From Seiridium cupressi (Eukaryota; Ascomycota; Sordariomycetes; Amphisphaeriales; Sporocadaceae), in assembly GCA_036674765.1 (NCBI GenBank), contig JARVKI010000028.1, positions 372,001 to 436,000 of the forward strand: a stretch of DNA of 64,000 nt, written 5' to 3'. The translations under genes and the position numbers were made by a program. The notes beneath the pieces are model-generated. The model ran no database searches. It was not told where the DNA came from and was given only the letters and a program-made list of their open reading frames with translations. Position 1 is the stretch's first letter; every line of letters begins with the position of its first letter. Of this stretch, positions 3,871-48,442 are shown piece by piece.

Positions 3871-5268
3871 TCACGCCGACATCCTCATGGAAACTGGAGA
3901 CAGCGGCACATGCTTCAACAACTCCATCAAGCCCCCGGACAGATAGGCGGTCGCCAGTTTGGGCACCCTCTTTTGGTCCACCGACGTTCTGCGGCCTTGC
4001 GCGGAGCTGGAAACCCGGCGGCTCCTTGTCATCTCTGCCCATGCCTGGAGAAGATCGTCCCCGAACCCCTCGAGGGAGGTCTCGGGCCTGACGTGGTTCT
4101 TGACCGTCTCAGCCCATTGCGGGACACCGTCGAGATAGATTTGCTCGACCCTCGACGTGATGCTCGTAGCGTGCTGAGGCACACAGCATTGCGAGGGCAT
4201 GAAAGCCAGCGCCTCGACGTTGGGCGTCTCTGTCATGAGCGTGGTCACTCCGCTAGCCGCGGCCTCGAGCGGAGTGATGCCCAGCGTCTCGTATCGCGAG
4301 GGGCAGAGAAAGATGCCGTTCCGGCGAGTCGCCGCAAACAGGGCGTATAAATGGTCCTTGGGCAATCTTGGGAGGATGAGAAAGTGTCGTCGCTTGTCCG
4401 CCGGTACAGACTTGAGGAGCGCCTGGCGTCGGGCGTCATCGCCCTCAGGGTCACCGACGATCAGGACTCTGACCGGAAGACCTCGCTTCAACAGCTCAAG
4501 GCCAGATTCGACCAGCAGCTCGACATTCTTGAAGTAATCCAACCGTGCGACGGCAGTGAAGAGGAGCAACTTGGAACTTGCGATAAACGATTGCATTCTT
4601 TTGGGTAAAATGTTCGGGCTCTGACTTGGAGGGATTCCGATTGGTGGCCGAAGCGTCTTGAAACGCATCGCATTCAGACCTTCGTCTTCCAGTACCCGCT
4701 GCTGAAGTCCGGAGTGGGCCAGAACGGTGCCGAGATTGTCTTGAAGCAGCCGTTGGATTCCGGTCCGCTGTTGTTGGTCAAGAATGTCGACCTTGTCCGA
4801 GTCACCTCCAAAAGCAAGTCTTGCCAGCTCTGGGGAGAACTCTTGCGTAAAGTGAGAGACAAACGGACCATGGTGGGTGACACAGAACTGGTACCCTTGA
4901 GGATGGAACTGGAGAAGAGTGTCGGTCTGGTAATAGACAATCGGTGAAGACCTCTTGCTGCCCTGAATGGAGATATAGTCGAAAGCCTGACCAAGTGCTG
5001 ATGCGACACCCGGCTGAGACATGCGGAAGTGGAAGTATACAGTCACCACTGGTATGCCGTTCCAGTCCTCCTCCGCCTCGCAGTAAGCCTCGCATAGCTC
5101 TTCATTGCGAGAGTATAGGACAACTCCGGATAGCACCTTGGCTTCGAGCAGAATGCGCAGGACAGAGAACGTGAAAGAACTGGCACCAACTTGAGCTGCG
5201 CTGAGTGCATCTCTCGGGAAATATTTCTTGTTGAGCACAACAATGCCAGGAGCGAGATTAGCGTCCAT
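3871..5268 (-). CDS. GT4-family glycosyltransferase (GT-B fold)
   Basis: A single exon gives 465 aa from the ATG at 5268; the frame extends a little upstream but only to a TTG. It looks like a nucleotide-sugar-dependent glycosyltransferase of CAZy family GT4. An N-terminal Rossmann half (residues 1-210) carries THHGPFVSHF. The C-terminal half starts near FTAVARLDYFKNVELLVE, where R242 and K247 are the usual phosphate-contacting pair. It continues with VLIVGDP and the diagnostic E-x7-E (E327...E335 in SRYETLGITPLEAAASG). There is no signal peptide or membrane segment, so it is probably cytosolic or peripheral. The acceptor is unknown. The lack of introns and a body reminiscent of bacterial GT4 enzymes leave horizontal acquisition open. 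The last 45 residues are basic and low in complexity. Confidence 0.85.
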   Translation of the reverse strand: MDANLAPGIVVLNKKYFPRDALSAAQVGASSFTFSVLRILLEAKVLSGVVLYSRNEELCEAYCEAEEDWNGIPVVTVYFHFRMSQPGVASALGQAFDYISIQGSKRSSPIVYYQTDTLLQFHPQGYQFCVTHHGPFVSHFTQEFSPELARLAFGGDSDKVDILDQQQRTGIQRLLQDNLGTVLAHSGLQQRVLEDEGLNAMRFKTLRPPIGIPPSQSPNILPKRMQSFIASSKLLLFTAVARLDYFKNVELLVESGLELLKRGLPVRVLIVGDPEGDDARRQALLKSVPADKRRHFLILPRLPKDHLYALFAATRRNGIFLCPSRYETLGITPLEAAASGVTTLMTETPNVEALAFMPSQCCVPQHATSITSRVEQIYLDGVPQWAETVKNHVRPETSLEGFGDDLLQAWAEMTRSRRVSSSAQGRRTSVDQKRVPKLATAYLSGGLMELLKHVPLSPVSMRMSA

Positions 5269-38857: not shown

Positions 38858-40621
38858 ATGGCAGATTCACGTAAGCGACATGCTCAGGACGAACATGCAA
38901 CGACTGGAATGGCAAAGAAACACCATCGCATGCGCGCCGAGAATGTGTCGCATCAAAACCTAGACGATTTTCAGGGATCTCTACGACACAGCAGCGCGCT
39001 AACAGAGACCTGGGGACATATGTTCAATTCAAGTCACTCCCGACAGAATCATAACGAACTACTTGTACATGGAAGGGAGTCGATTCGGGGATATGAACTT
39101 TCTTCCTCGGAACTCAGGTCACACGTGCACCTGCCCACTTACGGACAACGCAACACGCCCGAGGCAAGAACTATGGGCAAACATCTGCCTAATTCAAGGC
39201 ATCCCCAACAAATTGACGGCGATGGAAGATCAGGAGCCAGTTACGAATGGCCGGCTGAGGGGGTCACACTTTCTCGAGCCGAAGCCATACAATCCGATCA
39301 CGCCTCTATCCTCAAACCACTTCAGCAAACCAGCGAGCTTTCTGGAACGCGTCATAGTTACCATGCCCAAGAGCACATTTACCCTCCGAGCAACGTATCG
39401 ACGCGTAAAGCCACGCCCGTAGTCCAGCCTATCGGACAAGTCGGCGCCGGATCGCCCGGTGTAAGAGACCCCCCAGATGACATGGACGATGTACGTTTTT
39501 GTGTTGTGGTTTTCTTTTAGCGATTTCGTGGTTACTAACCTGGCCTTAAGCCCGACACCTATTCTGATGATTTTCGGCCCGAGAACGACCTAGGCATCAA
39601 GTTCGCTAGGTATCTACGTCCGAAACAGCTCAGGACACCCATTCAAAGCTCTAAAGACTTATTATGGCAACATATGAAGTCGTTGCCACAAATTGAGGTC
39701 GACCGAATGGAGCAACTCCCACATATTCCTGGAGAAGTTTATATCCACGCAAAATTACCTCGTGTACGAAATATCGAGTTAAACCCGCGCTTTAGAGGCA
39801 GCAAAAAGTTCAACCCGAAATGGGGATCCAACAGTCTCGCCCTCGTCGTATACCTTACTGGCGAAGAAGCGGAGACACCATGCAAATCCTGCGCCAATCG
39901 ATCTGGACCCTTCGTTGGCTGCGTTCTACCGCATAAATCGACGCATGCTCATCTATCCATGATCTCCTGTGCCAACTGTCGATACAACTGGCAAGGGAAA
40001 ACATGCGACCATTATGTGGATATCCGTAGAGCTCCGCCTACTGTAATGGATGAGAATATGAGCTCTGAATCACGCACTGACCAATCCATCCCCGATCAAT
40101 CCATCCCCGACCAAGCCGCTGCTACTGCTTTTCCCAAGAGGGAGCAAAGCAGGCTGGAAGCTTTCCTCGATTCCCTCCCGGAATGCCGAGAGGTCATCGA
40201 CCAGGCAAGACACTCTTTGATGGTGAAACAAGAGTTCAAGGCTGAAGAAGATGTTGCAAATGTACCCCAAAGCGAGCCAAACACCGAATGGGAGGCTGCT
40301 CCGGGAATTTGGCGCACTCGGAATGGCAATCGACGATTTGCCTATTCAGCGTCATACCTCAGAAATAATGGCCGCGAAGTCCCTGTCCACGAAGGCGTGG
40401 GCGTACGCATAGTGACGATTAATCCCAGTACGACTTTGCGGATTCAGGGCAATTGCCTCTGCTTTGTCCATGATGGCACCTTGCAGTTGACGGTCGGAGA
40501 TGAACAAGTCAATATCTCGTCCAACGGAATGTTCAAAGTATTTACGGGGAATGACGTGGATGTTATGAATCTAAGTGCACTCGATGTCACTATGCATGTC
40601 GTCGCCTTGGATTGGAACTGA
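38858..40621 (+). CDS. DUF3716-like zinc-binding protein with cupin-like C-terminus
   Basis: Exons 38858..39490 and 39551..40621 with a 60-nt intron (GTACGT donor, TACTAAC branch) give 567 aa from the ATG at 38858; the frame upstream opens only at a TTG. Residues 1-230 are His/Ser/Arg-rich and disordered. At about residues 324-370 lies a cysteine module, CKSCANRSGPFVGCVLP then SCANCRYNWQGKTCDHY, the pattern of fungal DUF3716, probably zinc-binding. A short repeat DQSIPDQSIPDQ follows. Residues about 458-567 form a compact beta-rich domain (GVRIVTINPSTTLRI, LQLTVGDEQVNISSNG) that looks cupin-like. Function unknown; DUF3716 proteins are expanded in some ascomycetes. It stands alone inside decayed sequence. 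Confidence 0.75.
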
Positions 40622-41188
40622 GCGGGAAGCTTCGGCTGGGCTGGCATCATGAAGGATCCGATTGACACAGCGTCACACATGGGGGACCGTGACTCGTTAT
40701 AGCTTCATCGATATTCAGCCGTCTTGTTCAATGAAGCGTGAGCCCACTTGCCATTCTATGTCTGGGCGTGTACAATGGGTGGTAGGATTTCTGGTTCTTG
40801 CGTTCTTCCGTTGTTCATTTTCACGGTCTCTTTGCTCGATTTGGGGGAACTAAAGACGATAATATAGCGTATAACCACGTTGAAATTGTATGGTAGCTAA
40901 AGAAAAATCATTACGTATTCCGTTCGGGACTTGGTCAGTCATAACAAGGCATCCTTCTATCGTGCATTGCATTATCCTATTGAACGAGAAGGAACTTGAC
41001 TTATTTTATAGTAAAAGCAGTTAAAAGGGGGGGAAAAAGCAGAGTAAAGGCAGAGAATTAATCCCCAGGCTTTTCTATATAATAGAGGGTAATTCCGTTA
41101 TTCGGAATCTTTTCTTGCCCCATTTTTTTCTCCATTTTCTTTATCACTTTTCTTGGATTTGATTAGGCGAGTGTTATTTCAACCAATA
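40622..41188. other. intergenic region upstream of tRNA-Phe
   Basis: 3' UTR of the DUF3716 gene followed by AT-rich sequence leading to the tRNA gene. No further feature seen. Confidence 0.5.
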
Positions 41189-41334
41189 GCGGGGATAGCT
41201 CAGTTGGGAGAGCGCCAGGTGAGTAACCAAACCGAATAATCCACTATTAGTTCAATTACTAACAATCCCATAGACTGAAGTCAAACATCAGTTCTTAAAT
41301 CTGGAGGTCATGTGTTCGATCCACATTCACCGCA
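41189..41334 (+). tRNA. tRNA-Phe(GAA) gene interrupted twice
   Basis: Exonic parts are 41189..41218 (positions 1-30), 41274..41280 (31-37) and 41299..41334 (38-73). Joined, they fold as tRNA-Phe: D stem GCTC/GAGC, anticodon stem CCAGA/TCTGG, loop CTGAAGA with anticodon GAA, T stem ATGTG/CACAT around TTCGATC, discriminator A. The acceptor stem pairs except for one G5:A68 mismatch. Box A (TAGCTCAGTTGG) and box B (TGTTCGATCC) are intact, and a T5 terminator lies at 41344-41348. The 18-nt intron at 41281..41298 follows position 37, the standard nuclear site, and contains TTC able to pair with the GAA anticodon. The 55-nt insertion at 41219..41273 is not a normal tRNA intron and is listed separately. 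Confidence 0.88.
41219..41273 (+). other. spliceosomal-type intron inserted in tRNA-Phe between positions 30 and 31
   Basis: The 55-nt insert opens with GTGAGT, carries TACTAAC at 41257-41263 (branch A eleven bases before the end) and closes with CATAG. These are the three signals seen in the protein-gene introns of this window, at the spacing and length typical of them. Removing exactly this segment restores five perfect anticodon-stem pairs. It contains no TTTT that would end Pol III transcription early. The flanking AG (CCAG before, ATAG at the end) fits insertion at a proto-splice site. Confidence 0.75.
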
Positions 41335-41343
41335 CTAACTCAG

Positions 41344-41348
41344 TTTTT
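41344..41348 (+). terminator. Pol III terminator of tRNA-Phe
   Basis: A run of five T begins ten bases after the discriminator base, the usual place and form of a Pol III stop. Confidence 0.8.
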
Positions 41349-42506
41349 GCCCATAAATTGATGTATTCTTTTGAATTTCGATGCGCTTTTGTTCTTTTTG
41401 AATTCATAGGTTTGCATTGTGGTCTTTCTCTTTCCAGAGTTTCCTAATATTGGCTGGCGAGTGTAGAGGTCATCATGAGACCTCCCCGTCAGTGTTTTGC
41501 GTGAGGGGTAGTAGGTATTTAAGCGGAGTGGAGGCGTCCTAGGGCTGCGGTTAATGTGGGTGATTTTGAAGGCTGTGGAGCGACGACCCAATGAATGTGT
41601 TTAGAAGGCCCAGGTACGCGTAATACGTATGACCTTCAAGTTGGAGACCACACACGTAAGAGGGGATGTAGTTACAAGGTCTCGTAAGCGCTAACTATGA
41701 ATGGGAAGCATCATTCGCAAATGGCAGCATATGTCAGGGGTTGGGCTTGTGAACTACAGTATCACGTCGGTCTAGTGTTTGTTCGTATCAGACTTCTGGG
41801 ACATCGATCCAAAATATGGAAAGTCTAATCACAATTATGATTGGATTAGAGTTGCGGTCCGAGCCGAATATACCTAGGTAGATACCTAGTTTGGTTTGGA
41901 GCACGAGAGTGCATACCATGGCACAAGCTCAACAGCAAGATCAGTTCTCCCACGCTCGGGTGGATGAGTGTATTAAACCTATTTGTACAACAAACTCTGG
42001 GTTCAAATCTCTCGGAAACACAACTGTGTCTTGGCTCCTGTCAGCAACCTTCTTACACAAACACCAAGTGACGTAGTTCAAAGACAATGGGAGTCGTACA
42101 TGCATTTCGAAAACTGGGGGTGGTATTGACGTAAATAACCCTGCCGATCTTCTGCTGTCTTGCGCCCAATCACAAGAAAGGCGCGTCCGCTAGCACCATG
42201 CACTGCGGATCCTTCAGCTCGAGGCAGGCTGGCAACTCGGCCTTTGATCAGCTGAGCGCGTGTAATTACAGATGGCTGTGTCTGCGCTGAGGTGTGCAAA
42301 GCCAAGCTGTCTGTGAAACCTCAACGTTCTTGCTCAGTAGGAAGGAGGTGTCGAGAAAGCAGCCTTGATCGGTCTAAAAGTACCATCCCTCTCTCTTCGT
42401 CAAGTAGGCCCTCTTGGAACGCGGACGCTATTCGCTTTGCGCCAGTCTGAGATGATTGAGTAACTGTTTCGAAGCTACGCCGCTCGTGCCACGCTGGGGT
42501 TTGACG
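41349..42506. other. intergenic region, 1.2 kb
   Basis: Between the tRNA and the hydrolase-CorA gene. Short frames without ATG starts or family resemblance; the last few hundred bases are probably promoter of the downstream gene. Confidence 0.45.
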
Positions 42507-45500
42507 ATGACAGACGCGCCTACAAGCCACCATGGAGCCAATGCTGGCACTGGTCTCGAGGTACAAGACACAATGCGCGCTAGAGCCTCATCGGAACCAG
42601 GTCGTCGTCTCACACGGCATGAGCCACTCGATACTGACGGTCAAGAAGACCAGTCAGCTCGTCGCAGTTCCTCAAATTGGGACCCAGAGCCCGGCTTTGC
42701 TCAGGTCGATGGTGACGTTAAAGGACCTGGTTACAATGAGACCAAAGTTGATATCATCGCCATTCCGTGCCCTGGCGCCTCACCCATCGAGACTTGGACG
42801 CGGGATCCGTTTCCTGATGGATCCTTCGGGTCTCCCCCGAATGACTTGTGGGTTCAGCAGGGACTACGCAGCAAGATCAACATAGCACGAGTACTGCTCT
42901 ACAAGCATCGTGAGCTACACGAGGGTCTGACCCTTGAAAACCTAGCCGATGACTTGTTGGACCGTCTGAGCCGAATGCGCGAGAGTCATGAGGGCGCTCG
43001 GCCGATGTTCTTCATATGTCACAGTATTGGCGGACTGGTCGCTAAGCATGCGCTTGTAAAGGCAAGTCGGAACAAGGATTTGCTTTGGATCAACTATAAT
43101 TGCCATGGCATGACTTTCTTTGGTAGGCGCAAACCAAGAATCGCCCAGCCCGCTCGCCTAGCTTACATGAATAGCAACACCTCATCGGGGATCTAGCTAC
43201 TTGTCGATGCCAAATCTTCGGGATAGTATCCAACATCTTCTATACCTAGCGCGGCCTCTACCAGATACACTCAGTGACCAGCTTCGCCTAAACAACAAGC
43301 CGCTACTAAAGCTGCATAGCCAGTTCATAGACATTGCGAGTGAGATGCATATATGGACTTTCTATGAGACCCTGGATTCTCAGCTATCTGGTTTTGGTGC
43401 ATCACACATCGACCAAGTTCACTTCAGCGCACCGCTTGCGTCCATCAAATCGACCCTCGTGGGAAGTCGACACGAGCAGGCATTTTCTCTCGAAAGCGAA
43501 CACGCCGTATGCGCATCTTTCGGCCAGAGAAATTCTCAGATCCTGGTGTCGTATTTAGACGATCTCAAACAAGCCGTCCAAAAGGCAGAAAGGATTAGTT
43601 CCGCCCATATCCACACACCGCTCAAGCTTGCCGAGCATGTGAAATTAGAGCTTATCGGCTTCTATGATGACCCTGATCCTGAGACCATCTCCGATGTGCG
43701 ATTATATGTCTCGAAGCATCCCTTGAACGAGTTCCTAGAGAAAGGTCCGGAGAAATGTTTGAGTGAGAGGCTCAATACCATGGCGGCAGATCCACGTCGT
43801 GGGAGTCAACTGTCAAGGTCACATTCCAGGCCAATTAGCTCGGGCGGTTTGAGCCAGATAGCTGCCAATACCCTTGGAATTTGGAGCAATGTACATGACT
43901 TTGGTCAGAGAATCCTCAGCGGAGGAAGTCCTCGCTCCGACCGCTCGCCAGATAGTCCAGAGCAAGCTGAAGGTCCGGAAATTGTGGTGACAAGCCATAT
44001 ACAACGCCCTTCTATCACTGATGTCCGGCCGACAACATCTGAGCCAACGATAATGCCTCGCCAGGCTCGTGGGCTCAGTATTCCGCCGCTTACCACGCCG
44101 GGCTACCATCGACCGGAGAGCCGAAGCAGCAGTCGAAGCGCTAAGGATAGCAACGAAACTGCCCGAACAGTCTCTGACCTAACAGGAACCGAGCTTTCGC
44201 CACACACTGCTGGCGACAGCGCGTCGCTTCAACCCCAATTCACTGGTGATGCTGTGCCTGGCATAGACGAACGTGATTTCAATCCAGCTTCGAGGCAGCG
44301 CAAAGACAGAATCAGCCGTGCGTCTGCTCTCCAAGACTTGACTGCCGGATTCTCAAGGCCGGATCCGACAAAGAGGAAGTTCATGTGGATTCACCTCCCT
44401 TACAATAACCCACATTGGGTCAAAGTTAGTATTATTCCATATTCAGGCTTTGTTTTTATGCTGACGTAAAACAGAGCATCTTCGATAAACTCTCAGATAC
44501 TCAGCGCTGCAACTACAAGAATTTGCTGCGAGATGAATACTGGTCTGACAGACATATTCAGGGGCGACATGGGCAGGCTCGTAAGGACTTTCTTACCTTC
44601 TTGGCTGTCTTCTCGGTGTTAAGTTGATGTCTTGAGAGTCAAATACTCTTTTTGAAAGCCTTTTCATCATTCTCAGAACTATCTGTAAGAGCAACGGCTA
44701 ACGCGTGTTTGATATAGATGCTTCATATGTCAAGCCTGGCTGCGGTTTCGTGCCAGCAGAAGCCCGTAGGTTCTAATACTGCACTGGCTTTAGGTATCAA
44801 CTAATGGGATCAGACTCTCCCCGTCCGTCGAACATGGGCGGAGCTAGCAATCCACCATTCGACAGCCCAAATCACATTTGTAAGTATGCTAAATGTGCAG
44901 AGACTTTTCCTTATTTCCCTCGACTTTCTGAGAGCTAAAGACCATCTTTGTCACAAAAGGAACCCTCTTTCCGCCTCGTACAGAAGCTCACATTCTTTTG
45001 TCATCAGATCTGTATCTTCCATACTTGCACTATGACACGTATCAGAACCTTATCCGGCGACGAAACATCGTTCAAAGACGAATGGAACATGGTCGGGCGA
45101 GGCCTGTTCCTAAGGACGTTGCGGACAATTCATCGCTCGATATGAAAGTTATTTGGGAGTTCATTGGTCACGACCCGCCACTCAACGCTCGACGGACTCT
45201 TGATCAATACGGATACCCGTCACTTCGGGATACCTATGCCCGCGATGACGATCAGATGATGTACAAGCTTACCAAAGAGCGAGTACCATTCGACAAAAAG
45301 AAAACTGACATGTTTGGTACTCGAGCAATGAAGGAGCAATCTCCAATATCCCCGGCCGACCGTTTAGCGTCAGCGGTAAATGCTATCAAGTCAGAGCTAG
45401 TTATGTATGGCGACCATGAGCCGGCGGCTAAAGTTGAGAATGACATACTTGATGGAAATATACTCATGATCGATCAACTTTGGCTTTGGGCAGTTGATAC

Positions 45501-46873: not shown

Positions 46874-47210
46874 GTTTGGCGGTTGCCGCTTTTGTGATTA
46901 TAGGGTTCGTGGCTCTTAGCCAGCATGCATGAATCTTATGTCCAAGAATGGGGAACGACAGAGACAGAATGTTTACAGAAGCCTGCGATTTGTCCATACG
47001 AATGTTATATTGCTTGATGTTTTATACACCTGGCCGTCTATGTCATCAAAGTCGTAATATTTCCATTGTCGTAACTTAACCACAGCGTGAGCCACCAGCC
47101 GAGAGTGAAGTTGATTAAGCCCATAATACCTATCCCAAACCCCAGAAACGCCACGGCAGCAATCAAGATAGGACAAGAGATGTCAAATCTAACTATGTAA
47201 TGTGCAGTTG
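46874..47210. other. intergenic between convergent genes
   Basis: A 337-base 3'-to-3' gap; nothing recognised beyond UTR-like sequence. Confidence 0.5.
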
Positions 47211-48442
47211 TTATCTGGAATATGAACTCCTGCCAGCGCTTCGCGCTTCGAGTTCAAAATCATCTTTCTGCCGCACTGGGGGGTTATATTCTATCGCCCG
47301 TTGCTTCTCCCGACTCGACGCCACCGACGGTGCGGGCAACGCCTTGGGCAGTGTCCTTGACCGCTGCTCAAAGTCGAACTCACGTTCCAGCTCCCCGATG
47401 TCGTGGTACTTGCCCACGTGGTTCACCAAAGACTTGACTGTCGGACAAATGGCATCGCGATCCCGATGTCGGGTGCAGATCACACAGGCAAACTCCCCAT
47501 CGGGCGTGTGGCACTTGACAACGAAGCGCTGGCCCAGGTGGAATTCGCGCTCTTCGATTACCTCTCGCTCGTACCGACCGTCTGCGACCAGGCGAGGCGC
47601 CCGCTTGTCGATCTCCCAGAAGTCGTCGGATTCCACGTCTAGCCTGACACCGCACTCGGGACATCGACAGCTGCCCCCTGGAGCAAACGTGGCAGCCAGA
47701 GGCTTGTTTCGAACATACTGCAGGTCAAGCGCGTATCTGCAATACAACGGCTCGACATCCATGACGGTCGAAGCGCGTCTCGGTGACGGAAAGCCCTGTG
47801 GAGGTGGTCCCTCAATAGCCAAGGTCTGGCGCTGACGCTGCTGGCGGAGAGCATCTAGCGAGCCGTCTCGTGCCGCATTCGATGCCGCAATCAGCTTGGA
47901 CATGTCGTACGAGTCCAGCTGCCGCCCGCTATACAGGGCATCTTGAAGGACGTTGATTACCGTCTGCTGGAGGGCAATGACCTGCGCCTGCAGCCTGTTC
48001 TCTGTGATTGTGTCGCCCACGGCGAACCGCCTGCCGAGACGCGCATAGCCCTCGTCAAACTCCCGGCTGACTGCGGCACCCGAGCGCTCCAGCGCAAACC
48101 CTACGTCGTCTCTATCCCTGTCGCCGCCGCCTCGCTGGCTCAAGCGGTCTATGCGATCCTCCTTGTCCTTGTTGCGCTTCTCGGAGTCGTCGATTTGGGC
48201 TTGCAACTTTGCGATCTTGTCATCTTGCTTCGTATCGCGCTTCTTTTGCTGTTGGCGGTCTTTGACGCGGTCCCATAGGCCGATGGAGGAGGTAAAGGTA
48301 CCGACGAGGGTAGAGCAGAGGGTTGCTATTATGTAGGTTTTCTAGTAGAGAGCATAGTGTGAGCGAAGGGGTCTTCAAGTGAAGGAAAGGACTGGGCGCA
48401 TACCTTGAGGTGCTTCTCCTCAATCATGTTGGCGTAATTCAT
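47211..48442 (-). CDS. membrane-anchored protein with C-terminal zinc-finger-like cysteines
   Basis: Exons 48404..48442 and 47211..48341 with a 62-nt intron give 389 aa. The 13-residue first exon (MNYANMIEEKHLK) joins to KTYIIATLCSTLVGTFTSSI, one membrane segment at about residues 15-33. Next comes a charged coiled coil (RVKDRQQQKKRDTKQDDKIA, EKRNKDKEDRIDRL). The C-terminal half has a CxxC pair (SCRCPECGVRLDVESDDFWE) and a second set, CVICTRHRDRDAICPT with VNHVGKYHD, which together could bind zinc like a C2H2-type finger. I do not recognise the family. It probably faces the cytosol from a membrane; function unknown. Confidence 0.82.

Follow-up and report, generated by a model that had tools for sequence, protein, structure and literature searches.

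Spliceosomal introns in ascomycete rDNA were reportedly described by Bhattacharya et al. in 2000 and Cubero et al. in 2000, and there they interrupt non-coding RNA genes that are not transcribed by Pol II. Their removal from Pol I transcripts is reported for lichen fungi and for yeast, in which lichen introns of the spliceosomal class are spliced out of Pol I rRNA (PMC8527467). Fungal U6 snRNA and U3 snoRNA genes carry GT-AG introns within small structured RNAs, and in 2017 another article named U3 and U6 as the only RNAs of this kind known to be often intron-interrupted (PMC5832005). The tRNA genes of archaea, Cyanidioschyzon merolae and nucleomorphs may hold two or three introns, some at the positions considered below; a 2014 review ascribes these to the tRNA endonuclease acting on bulge-helix-bulge-like (BHB-like) sites, or to an unknown route where the introns are very short, and no word starting with "spliceosom" stands in its main text (PMC4090602).

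The nuclear tRNA-Phe gene described here very probably carries a U2-type spliceosomal intron while remaining a working Pol III gene, and at least nine candidate introns of this kind, distributed over eight tRNA genes, can be recognized from sequence. Unlike the rDNA cases, the hosts are Pol III tRNA genes of several isoacceptors, each with an endonuclease-type intron at 37/38; in contrast to U6 and U3, the host is of a new kind, a tRNA whose promoters lie inside the gene and which also holds another, unrelated intron. The inserts also differ from the archaeal, Cyanidioschyzon and nucleomorph introns in their GT-AG boundaries, in their branch site and in lacking a complete BHB, and from the canonical eukaryotic introns at 37/38, present in all eight genes, in position, boundaries and presumed enzyme. 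The novelty would lie in a known intron class within a new class of host gene, with two splicing systems acting on one RNA. The preliminary description of the locus knew of no spliceosomal intron in a nuclear tRNA, and searches of open-access literature brought up no report of one.

Anatomy and sister copies of the tRNA-Phe gene

The window, meaning the whole 64-kb stretch of DNA analysed, corresponds to C28:372001-436000 of a genome assembly of 45.4 Mb in 228 contigs. The gene and its parts are as follows.

41189..41334, + strand: nuclear tRNA-Phe(GAA) gene with two introns, 146 nt
41189..41218, + strand: exon 1, covering positions 1-30 of the tRNA with box A, the D arm and the 5' side of the anticodon stem, same sequence in the C9 and C50 copies
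41219..41273, + strand: 55-nt spliceosomal-type intron at 30/31, GTGAGT...TACTAAC...TAG, missing in the C9 sister and diverged in the C50 sister
41219..41224, + strand: 5' splice site GTGAGT with exon CCAG upstream, by pattern match
41257..41263, + strand: branch-site motif TACTAAC, 10 nt from the insert end, by pattern match
41271..41273, + strand: 3' splice site TAG, by pattern match
41274..41280, + strand: exon 2, positions 31-37, anticodon GAA, from sister alignment and ARAGORN on the spliced form
41281..41298, + strand: canonical 18-nt tRNA intron at 37/38, from sister alignment
41299..41334, + strand: exon 3, covering positions 38-73 and including A73, the T arm and box B GTTCGATCC, from sequence, sister alignment and ARAGORN on the spliced form
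41344..41348, + strand: T5 Pol III terminator, from sequence

These coordinates confirm the preliminary description, which had recognized a tRNA-Phe gene interrupted twice, by 55 nt between positions 30 and 31 and by an intron of 18 nt after position 37. Its account of the insert also stands: GTGAGT, TACTAAC and TAG are matched by pattern at fungal spacing, with the branch motif 10 nt before the end, TTTT is absent, and the internal boxes and T5 terminator around it are intact. The anticodon stem that excision had been said to restore is indeed complete, the doubly spliced sequence being read by ARAGORN as a 73-nt tRNA-Phe(gaa). A G5.A68 mismatch in the acceptor stem had been overlooked; it is common to all three copies of the gene, the insert-free one included.

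In its unspliced form the window gene is missed both by ARAGORN and by Rfam cmscan of the 64-kb window. With the intron option, ARAGORN converts the unspliced gene into Lys(ctt), and the gene freed of its insert but retaining the 18-nt intron into Tyr(gta); moreover, a tRNA is still called when the excision is displaced by several bases. The program is blunt on boundaries, so the exact boundary of the Phe insert rests on the sister genes. Among the window ORFs, none of at least 200 aa overlaps 41189-41348. Elsewhere in the window, the ORF at 3871-5268 on the minus strand encodes a 465-residue protein that is 95% identical over its full length to Seiridium cardinale SCAR479_00146, with next named matches in Truncatella (73%) and Neopestalotiopsis (70%). 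Judged by this one protein, the fungus belongs to Seiridium or to a near relative (Sporocadaceae, Sordariomycetes). At 47200-47903 long ORFs of 211 and 230 aa overlap on both strands.

Patterns derived from the D arm and from the T arm, applied to the whole genome, recover three genes with the same tRNA-Phe body: C9:176481, the window gene on C28, and C50:189348. All 73 of 73 exon bases are identical among them. The preliminary description had called for a genome search for tRNA-Phe copies free of the insert, and the C9 gene, with identical exons, is such a copy; the C50 gene carries a 55-nt insert at the same site, diverged in sequence and ending in AAG. A fourth tRNA-Phe gene, C2:364528, is built on another body and lacks any extra insert. 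When the Phe insert is compared by BLAST with the 45.4 Mb, there are two matches, C28 and C50, both in tRNA-Phe. Additionally, a decayed 3' tRNA-Phe copy with exon mismatches lies at C9:176785 (L009), about 210 bases past the intact C9 gene.

Insert-bearing tRNA genes and their splice signals

The proposal of a spliceosomal-type intron beside the normal tRNA intron, first made for the window gene alone, is strengthened by the insert-free C9 sister, the diverged C50 insert, and six more genes with seven more inserts. The eight genes hold nine inserts at five sites (26/27, 27/28, 30/31, 46/47, 53/54): two tRNA-Phe genes at 30/31, three Pro-AGG genes at 26/27, one Pro-CGG gene at both 27/28 and 53/54, one elongator Met gene at 46/47, and one Lys-UUU gene at 46/47. 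A 37/38 intron is also present in 8/8. The genes other than tRNA-Phe are listed here, with a slash at each exon border given.

C13:124207: tRNA-Met(CAT), AAGG/GTTCGT...TACTAAC...TAG/TC at 46/47
C26:60226: tRNA-Lys(TTT), AAGG/GTAAGC...GACTAAC...CAG/CT at 46/47; 37/38 intron of 25 nt
C38:299609 and C59:114257: tRNA-Pro(AGG) genes C38a and C59, GATT/GTAAGC...TAG/CTCGC at 26/27
C38:309569: tRNA-Pro(AGG) gene C38b, GTAAGC...TACTAAC...CAG at 26/27
C46:111935: tRNA-Pro(CGG), insert 1, GTTTGT...AACTGAC...TAG at 27/28
C46:111935: tRNA-Pro(CGG), insert 2, GTAAGT...TGTTAAC...CAG at 53/54

Insert-free sisters fix the insert boundaries for Phe and for two Pro-AGG genes. Specifically, the Pro-AGG sister on C16 has no insert and shares 72/72 exon bases with C38a and C59. 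Two tRNA-Met sisters, on C20 and C185, are continuous across 46/47 with no insert. The register of the insert shifts over 2 nt in Phe, where AG at both flanks creates the ambiguity and GT...AG appears in only one of the three equivalent registers, over 1 nt in Met and Lys, and over 0 in the three Pro-AGG genes (Pro-CGG left out). In Pro-CGG, which contains a 23-nt intron at 37/38 besides its two inserts, box B (GTTCAAATC) takes its G from the AG of the 53/54 insert and is thereby kept on the DNA. Splicing in silico yields the expected tRNA by ARAGORN in 8/8 genes (Phe twice, Pro(agg) three times, Pro(cgg), Met and Lys(ttt)), and unspliced, without the intron option, 0/8 are detected. A second tRNA with a TTT anticodon lies at C41:354628 (L050), its D arm resembling that of an Arg-UCU tRNA. 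Should it prove not to be a genuine Lys tRNA, the insert-bearing copy on C26 may be the sole Lys-UUU gene found.

Eight genes is a lower bound, the tRNA survey being incomplete: in one search the matches covered were 100 out of 430, those on contigs C1-C14. The cloverleaf scan is passed by 70 distinct nuclear places, which come partly from targeted searches and from which no fraction is to be drawn; C174, taken as mitochondrial, is left out of them. Eight of the 70 exceed 125 nt, namely seven insert-bearing genes and L103, and the remaining insert-bearing gene, Pro-CGG, does not pass, owing to its divided T arm. Searches combining a branch site with box B return the known genes along with chance matches. 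They were judged at inspected loci for 21/25, 11/14, 21/44 and 14/35 matches and from the matched text for the others; at the inspected loci, beyond the known insert genes, only an ordinary tRNA-Glu (L066) passes the scan. One pattern each against bacterial and archaeal genomes and viral contigs gives no matches, as expected for a fungal gene.

Several other tRNA-like elements appear in the survey. L103 (C2:634383-634539) is a 157-nt element whose acceptor, D and T arms are well formed, whereas its long middle repeats TTGGACTTCG and shows no clear anticodon arm. L112 (C8:549087) and L115 (C10:613692) are tRNA-like, with box B and similar 5' parts (TGGTGTAACTGGCAAAA, TGGCTTCACTGGCAAAA), and are possibly Pol III SINE-like. 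L008 (C174:28842-28987) comprises two adjacent, near-identical tRNA-Val-like copies on a tRNA-rich, probably mitochondrial contig of 42 kb.

The inserts display the features of U2-type introns, with GT...AG at the exon borders, a branch motif near the 3' end and a fungal length. They measure 49-60 nt, and YTRAY ends 9-14 nt before the 3' end. The pattern GT[AGT]NG[TC]...[CT]T[AG]A[CT]-N4-20-[ACT]AG, written after the inserts were seen, is matched by 9/9 of them and by the intron of a U6 gene described below; as it is post hoc, the fair measure is the contrast with 37/38 introns and genomic windows rather than 9/9 alone. None of 44 distinct 37/38 introns, a few of them doubtfully parsed (class II Leu genes, L103), matches it; four begin with GT and one ends with AG, none doing both. 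In the 64 kb, 20 of 767,354 windows of 48, 49, 54, 55, 57 and 60 bases on both strands match (2.6e-5), a count in which the Phe insert is contained, together with whatever genuine mRNA introns have these lengths. Weaker signals occur among the inserts, with GTTCGT and GTTTGT as 5' sites in two, an AAG end in one and a TTAAC branch in one.

Introns predicted from ORFs of this genome, a noisy set, are similar in shape to the tRNA inserts. Under the strict setting, 21/22 measure 47-66 nt (one 93) with a branch spacing of 8-17 nt, against decoy counts of 1, 8 and 3; only this setting is usable, the loose one giving 37 matches against 28 and 31 for decoys. TTTT is absent from 9/9 inserts, which is weak evidence, being absent also from 37/45 ORF-predicted introns (40-codon setting, a set that includes the tRNA insert itself).

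The same contrast bears on whether the tRNA endonuclease could instead be the enzyme that excises the inserts, which would then be non-canonical tRNA introns like those of archaea, Cyanidioschyzon and nucleomorphs; this reading is very improbable. The 2014 review places archaeal non-canonical introns at the same or similar sites (30/31, 45/46, 53/54, 25/26) and describes tRNAs with two or three introns (PMC4090602), and in the three Pro-AGG genes 3/3 putative BHB outer-helix pairs are present. Against this, endonuclease introns need neither GT-AG boundaries nor a branch site, signals found in 9/9 inserts versus 0/44 introns at 37/38, and no insert forms a complete bulge-helix-bulge. Across the nine inserts the central helix has 3, 3, 1, 1, 0, 2, 2, 2 and 2 of 4 pairs, the outer helix 2, 2, 3, 3, 3, 1, 1, 0 and 0 of 3, and the inner helix 0, 1, 0, 0, 0, 0, 0, 0 and 2 of 3, in a simple pair count with no shuffled control for which random bases would give 1.5 central pairs. 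With sites off 37/38 and the three helices together in none of the inserts, the endonuclease assignment is rejected, and the earlier preference for a spliceosomal-type intron holds.

Exon conservation, decay and the origin of the inserts

Comparison of insert-bearing paralogues reveals exons that are identical beside inserts that have diverged. Between Phe C28 and C50, exons differ at 0/73 positions and inserts at 6/55 (Fisher p=0.005); between Pro C38a and C59, exons differ at 0/72 and inserts at 11/57, with five gap columns in addition (p=7e-5). Nine exon positions distinguish Pro-AGG C38b from C38a, and eight of them form four compensatory pairs (3-70, 5-68, 7-66 and 28-42), three of the four spanning the insert, while the ninth is G/A at 57. 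This compensatory case is one gene pair; its exon-versus-insert contrast is not significant (p=0.15), and the two insert cores are not significantly alike. The 5' flanks of Phe C28 and C50 match at 94/150 bases, compared with a mean of 78 and a maximum of 87 for unrelated 150-mers in 200 draws, and the other 150-bp flank comparisons give 75-86 matches. Exon identity could stem in part from gene conversion or recent dispersal; had conversion kept the exons alike, a matching likeness of the inserts would be expected.

These comparisons weigh most directly on the possibility that the insert-bearing genes are dead, their mRNA-type introns never being spliced from Pol III transcripts and intact sisters supplying the tRNA. 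Insert-free sisters do exist (one for Phe, one for Pro-AGG, two for Met), and together with the second TTT gene on C41 they mean that the insert loci need not be essential. The G5.A68 mismatch of the Phe acceptor stem likewise speaks against function, and by MFE folding, a test that is uninformative here, the spliced Phe sequence gives no cloverleaf. Dead genes are nonetheless improbable in light of the two pairs with zero exon differences beside diverged inserts and the third gene with compensatory changes, a pattern that would not be expected under free decay. Splice signals are retained in the diverged inserts, the truly decayed Phe fragment near C9:176785 does show exon mismatches, and three of the four Pro-AGG genes found would have to be dead. 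With 0/73 and 0/72 exon differences, and with boxes and T5 terminator intact in the window gene, assignment as a tRNA pseudogene is rejected; the exon conservation contradicts the inactivated pseudogene that the preliminary description had held out as its alternative.

As to where the inserts come from, their presence in five tRNA families at five sites suggests gain on more than one occasion. Spread of an introner-like mobile element through the genome, of which the inserts would be copies, is scarcely credible. Such elements are reported in fungi, and the core of the Phe C28 insert has a slight likeness to the Pro-AGG C38a core and to that of Pro-CGG intron 2 (for each pair, about 0.001-0.002 relative to shuffles). 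BLAST with the Phe insert, however, finds its own two loci only in the 45.4 Mb, with no dispersed near-identical copies, and the Met and Lys inserts, although at the same site, are not alike. Assignment as an introner-like element is rejected on that search, made with the Phe insert only.

Shuffle tests with splice signals trimmed quantify the likeness of the cores. The Phe C28 score is reached by 44 and 29 of 20,000 shuffles against Pro-AGG C38a and by 25 and 30 of 20,000 against Pro-CGG intron 2, values drawn from 45 screened pairs and not significant after allowing for them. For their counterparts on C50 and C59 the likeness is weaker, the score being reached by 374 to 863 of 20,000 shuffles, and no likeness is found for Met/Lys or C38a/C38b. 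The stretch CGAATAA.CCACT...ATT..GTTC recurs in the inserts of Phe C28 and Pro-AGG C38a and in the second insert of Pro-CGG C46. There may be only a hint here that introns were copied between tRNA genes; limited copying of this kind is possible and would leave the spliceosomal reading unchanged. Group I and group II introns are rejected, the insert being 55 nt and the window having no Rfam match at gathering scores; a permissive Rfam search of 40000-43000 gives one unrelated weak match. The best reading is that the inserts are functional spliceosomal introns of Pol III tRNA genes rather than endonuclease introns, introner copies or pseudogene damage.

Proposed maturation, precedents and meaning

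In the proposed pathway for the window gene, Pol III, relying on the A and B boxes that lie intact inside the gene, would produce a full-length transcript ending at the T5 terminator. In the nucleus the insert would be excised by the spliceosome, with U1 on GTGAGT, U2 on TACTAAC, a lariat intermediate and TAG at the 3' end, and this removal would rebuild the Phe anticodon stem. The normally folded pre-tRNA would then be end-processed and exported, after which tRNA endonuclease and ligase would remove the 18-nt intron at 37/38. The tRNA endonuclease finds its site by measuring on the body of the folded tRNA. Because it needs this body, which the insert breaks, the spliceosomal step probably precedes the endonuclease step. 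Elements disrupted by the inserts include the anticodon stem (30/31), the junction of D arm and anticodon stem (26/27) and the T arm (53/54).

The genome itself offers a parallel in the U6 gene L022 (C33:71722), which contains a 50-nt spliceosomal-type intron, AAGG/GTAAGC...TACTAAC...AAG/ATGACACGC, whose AAG 3' end is shared with the Phe C50 insert. Given this intron, the fungus probably already splices one Pol III transcript by the spliceosome. Two further U6-like loci, L021 (C55:27051) and L023 (C12:574434), score above the Rfam cut-off, diverge from the C33 gene and have no such insert; they may be U6 variants or pseudogenes. The preliminary description had pointed to spliceosomal introns in fungal U6 genes, and these are documented in published work (PMC5832005), with one of this type present here. 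Support for spliceosomal activity away from Pol II comes from U6 and U3 (PMC5832005) and from rDNA introns of lichens and yeast (PMC8527467).

As far as the sequences allow, it is likely that a share of the tRNA-Phe, -Pro, -Met and -Lys of this fungus is made by way of the spliceosome. Ordinary introns, acquired on separate occasions or copied between tRNA genes, would occupy five sites in eight genes, with Pro-CGG on C46 holding two besides its endonuclease intron, and tRNA levels would be tied to splicing capacity. If the inserts are used, these are to our knowledge the first nuclear tRNA genes known to need the spliceosome. Single RNAs would then be matured by two unrelated systems, a protein-only endonuclease and ligase and RNA-catalysed splicing, and the spliceosome would handle short Pol III transcripts beyond U6, linking tRNA supply to splicing. 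Use of the inserts would also explain tRNA genes overlooked by gene finders, and it would make the paralogues with and without inserts a natural set for intron gain in structured RNAs.
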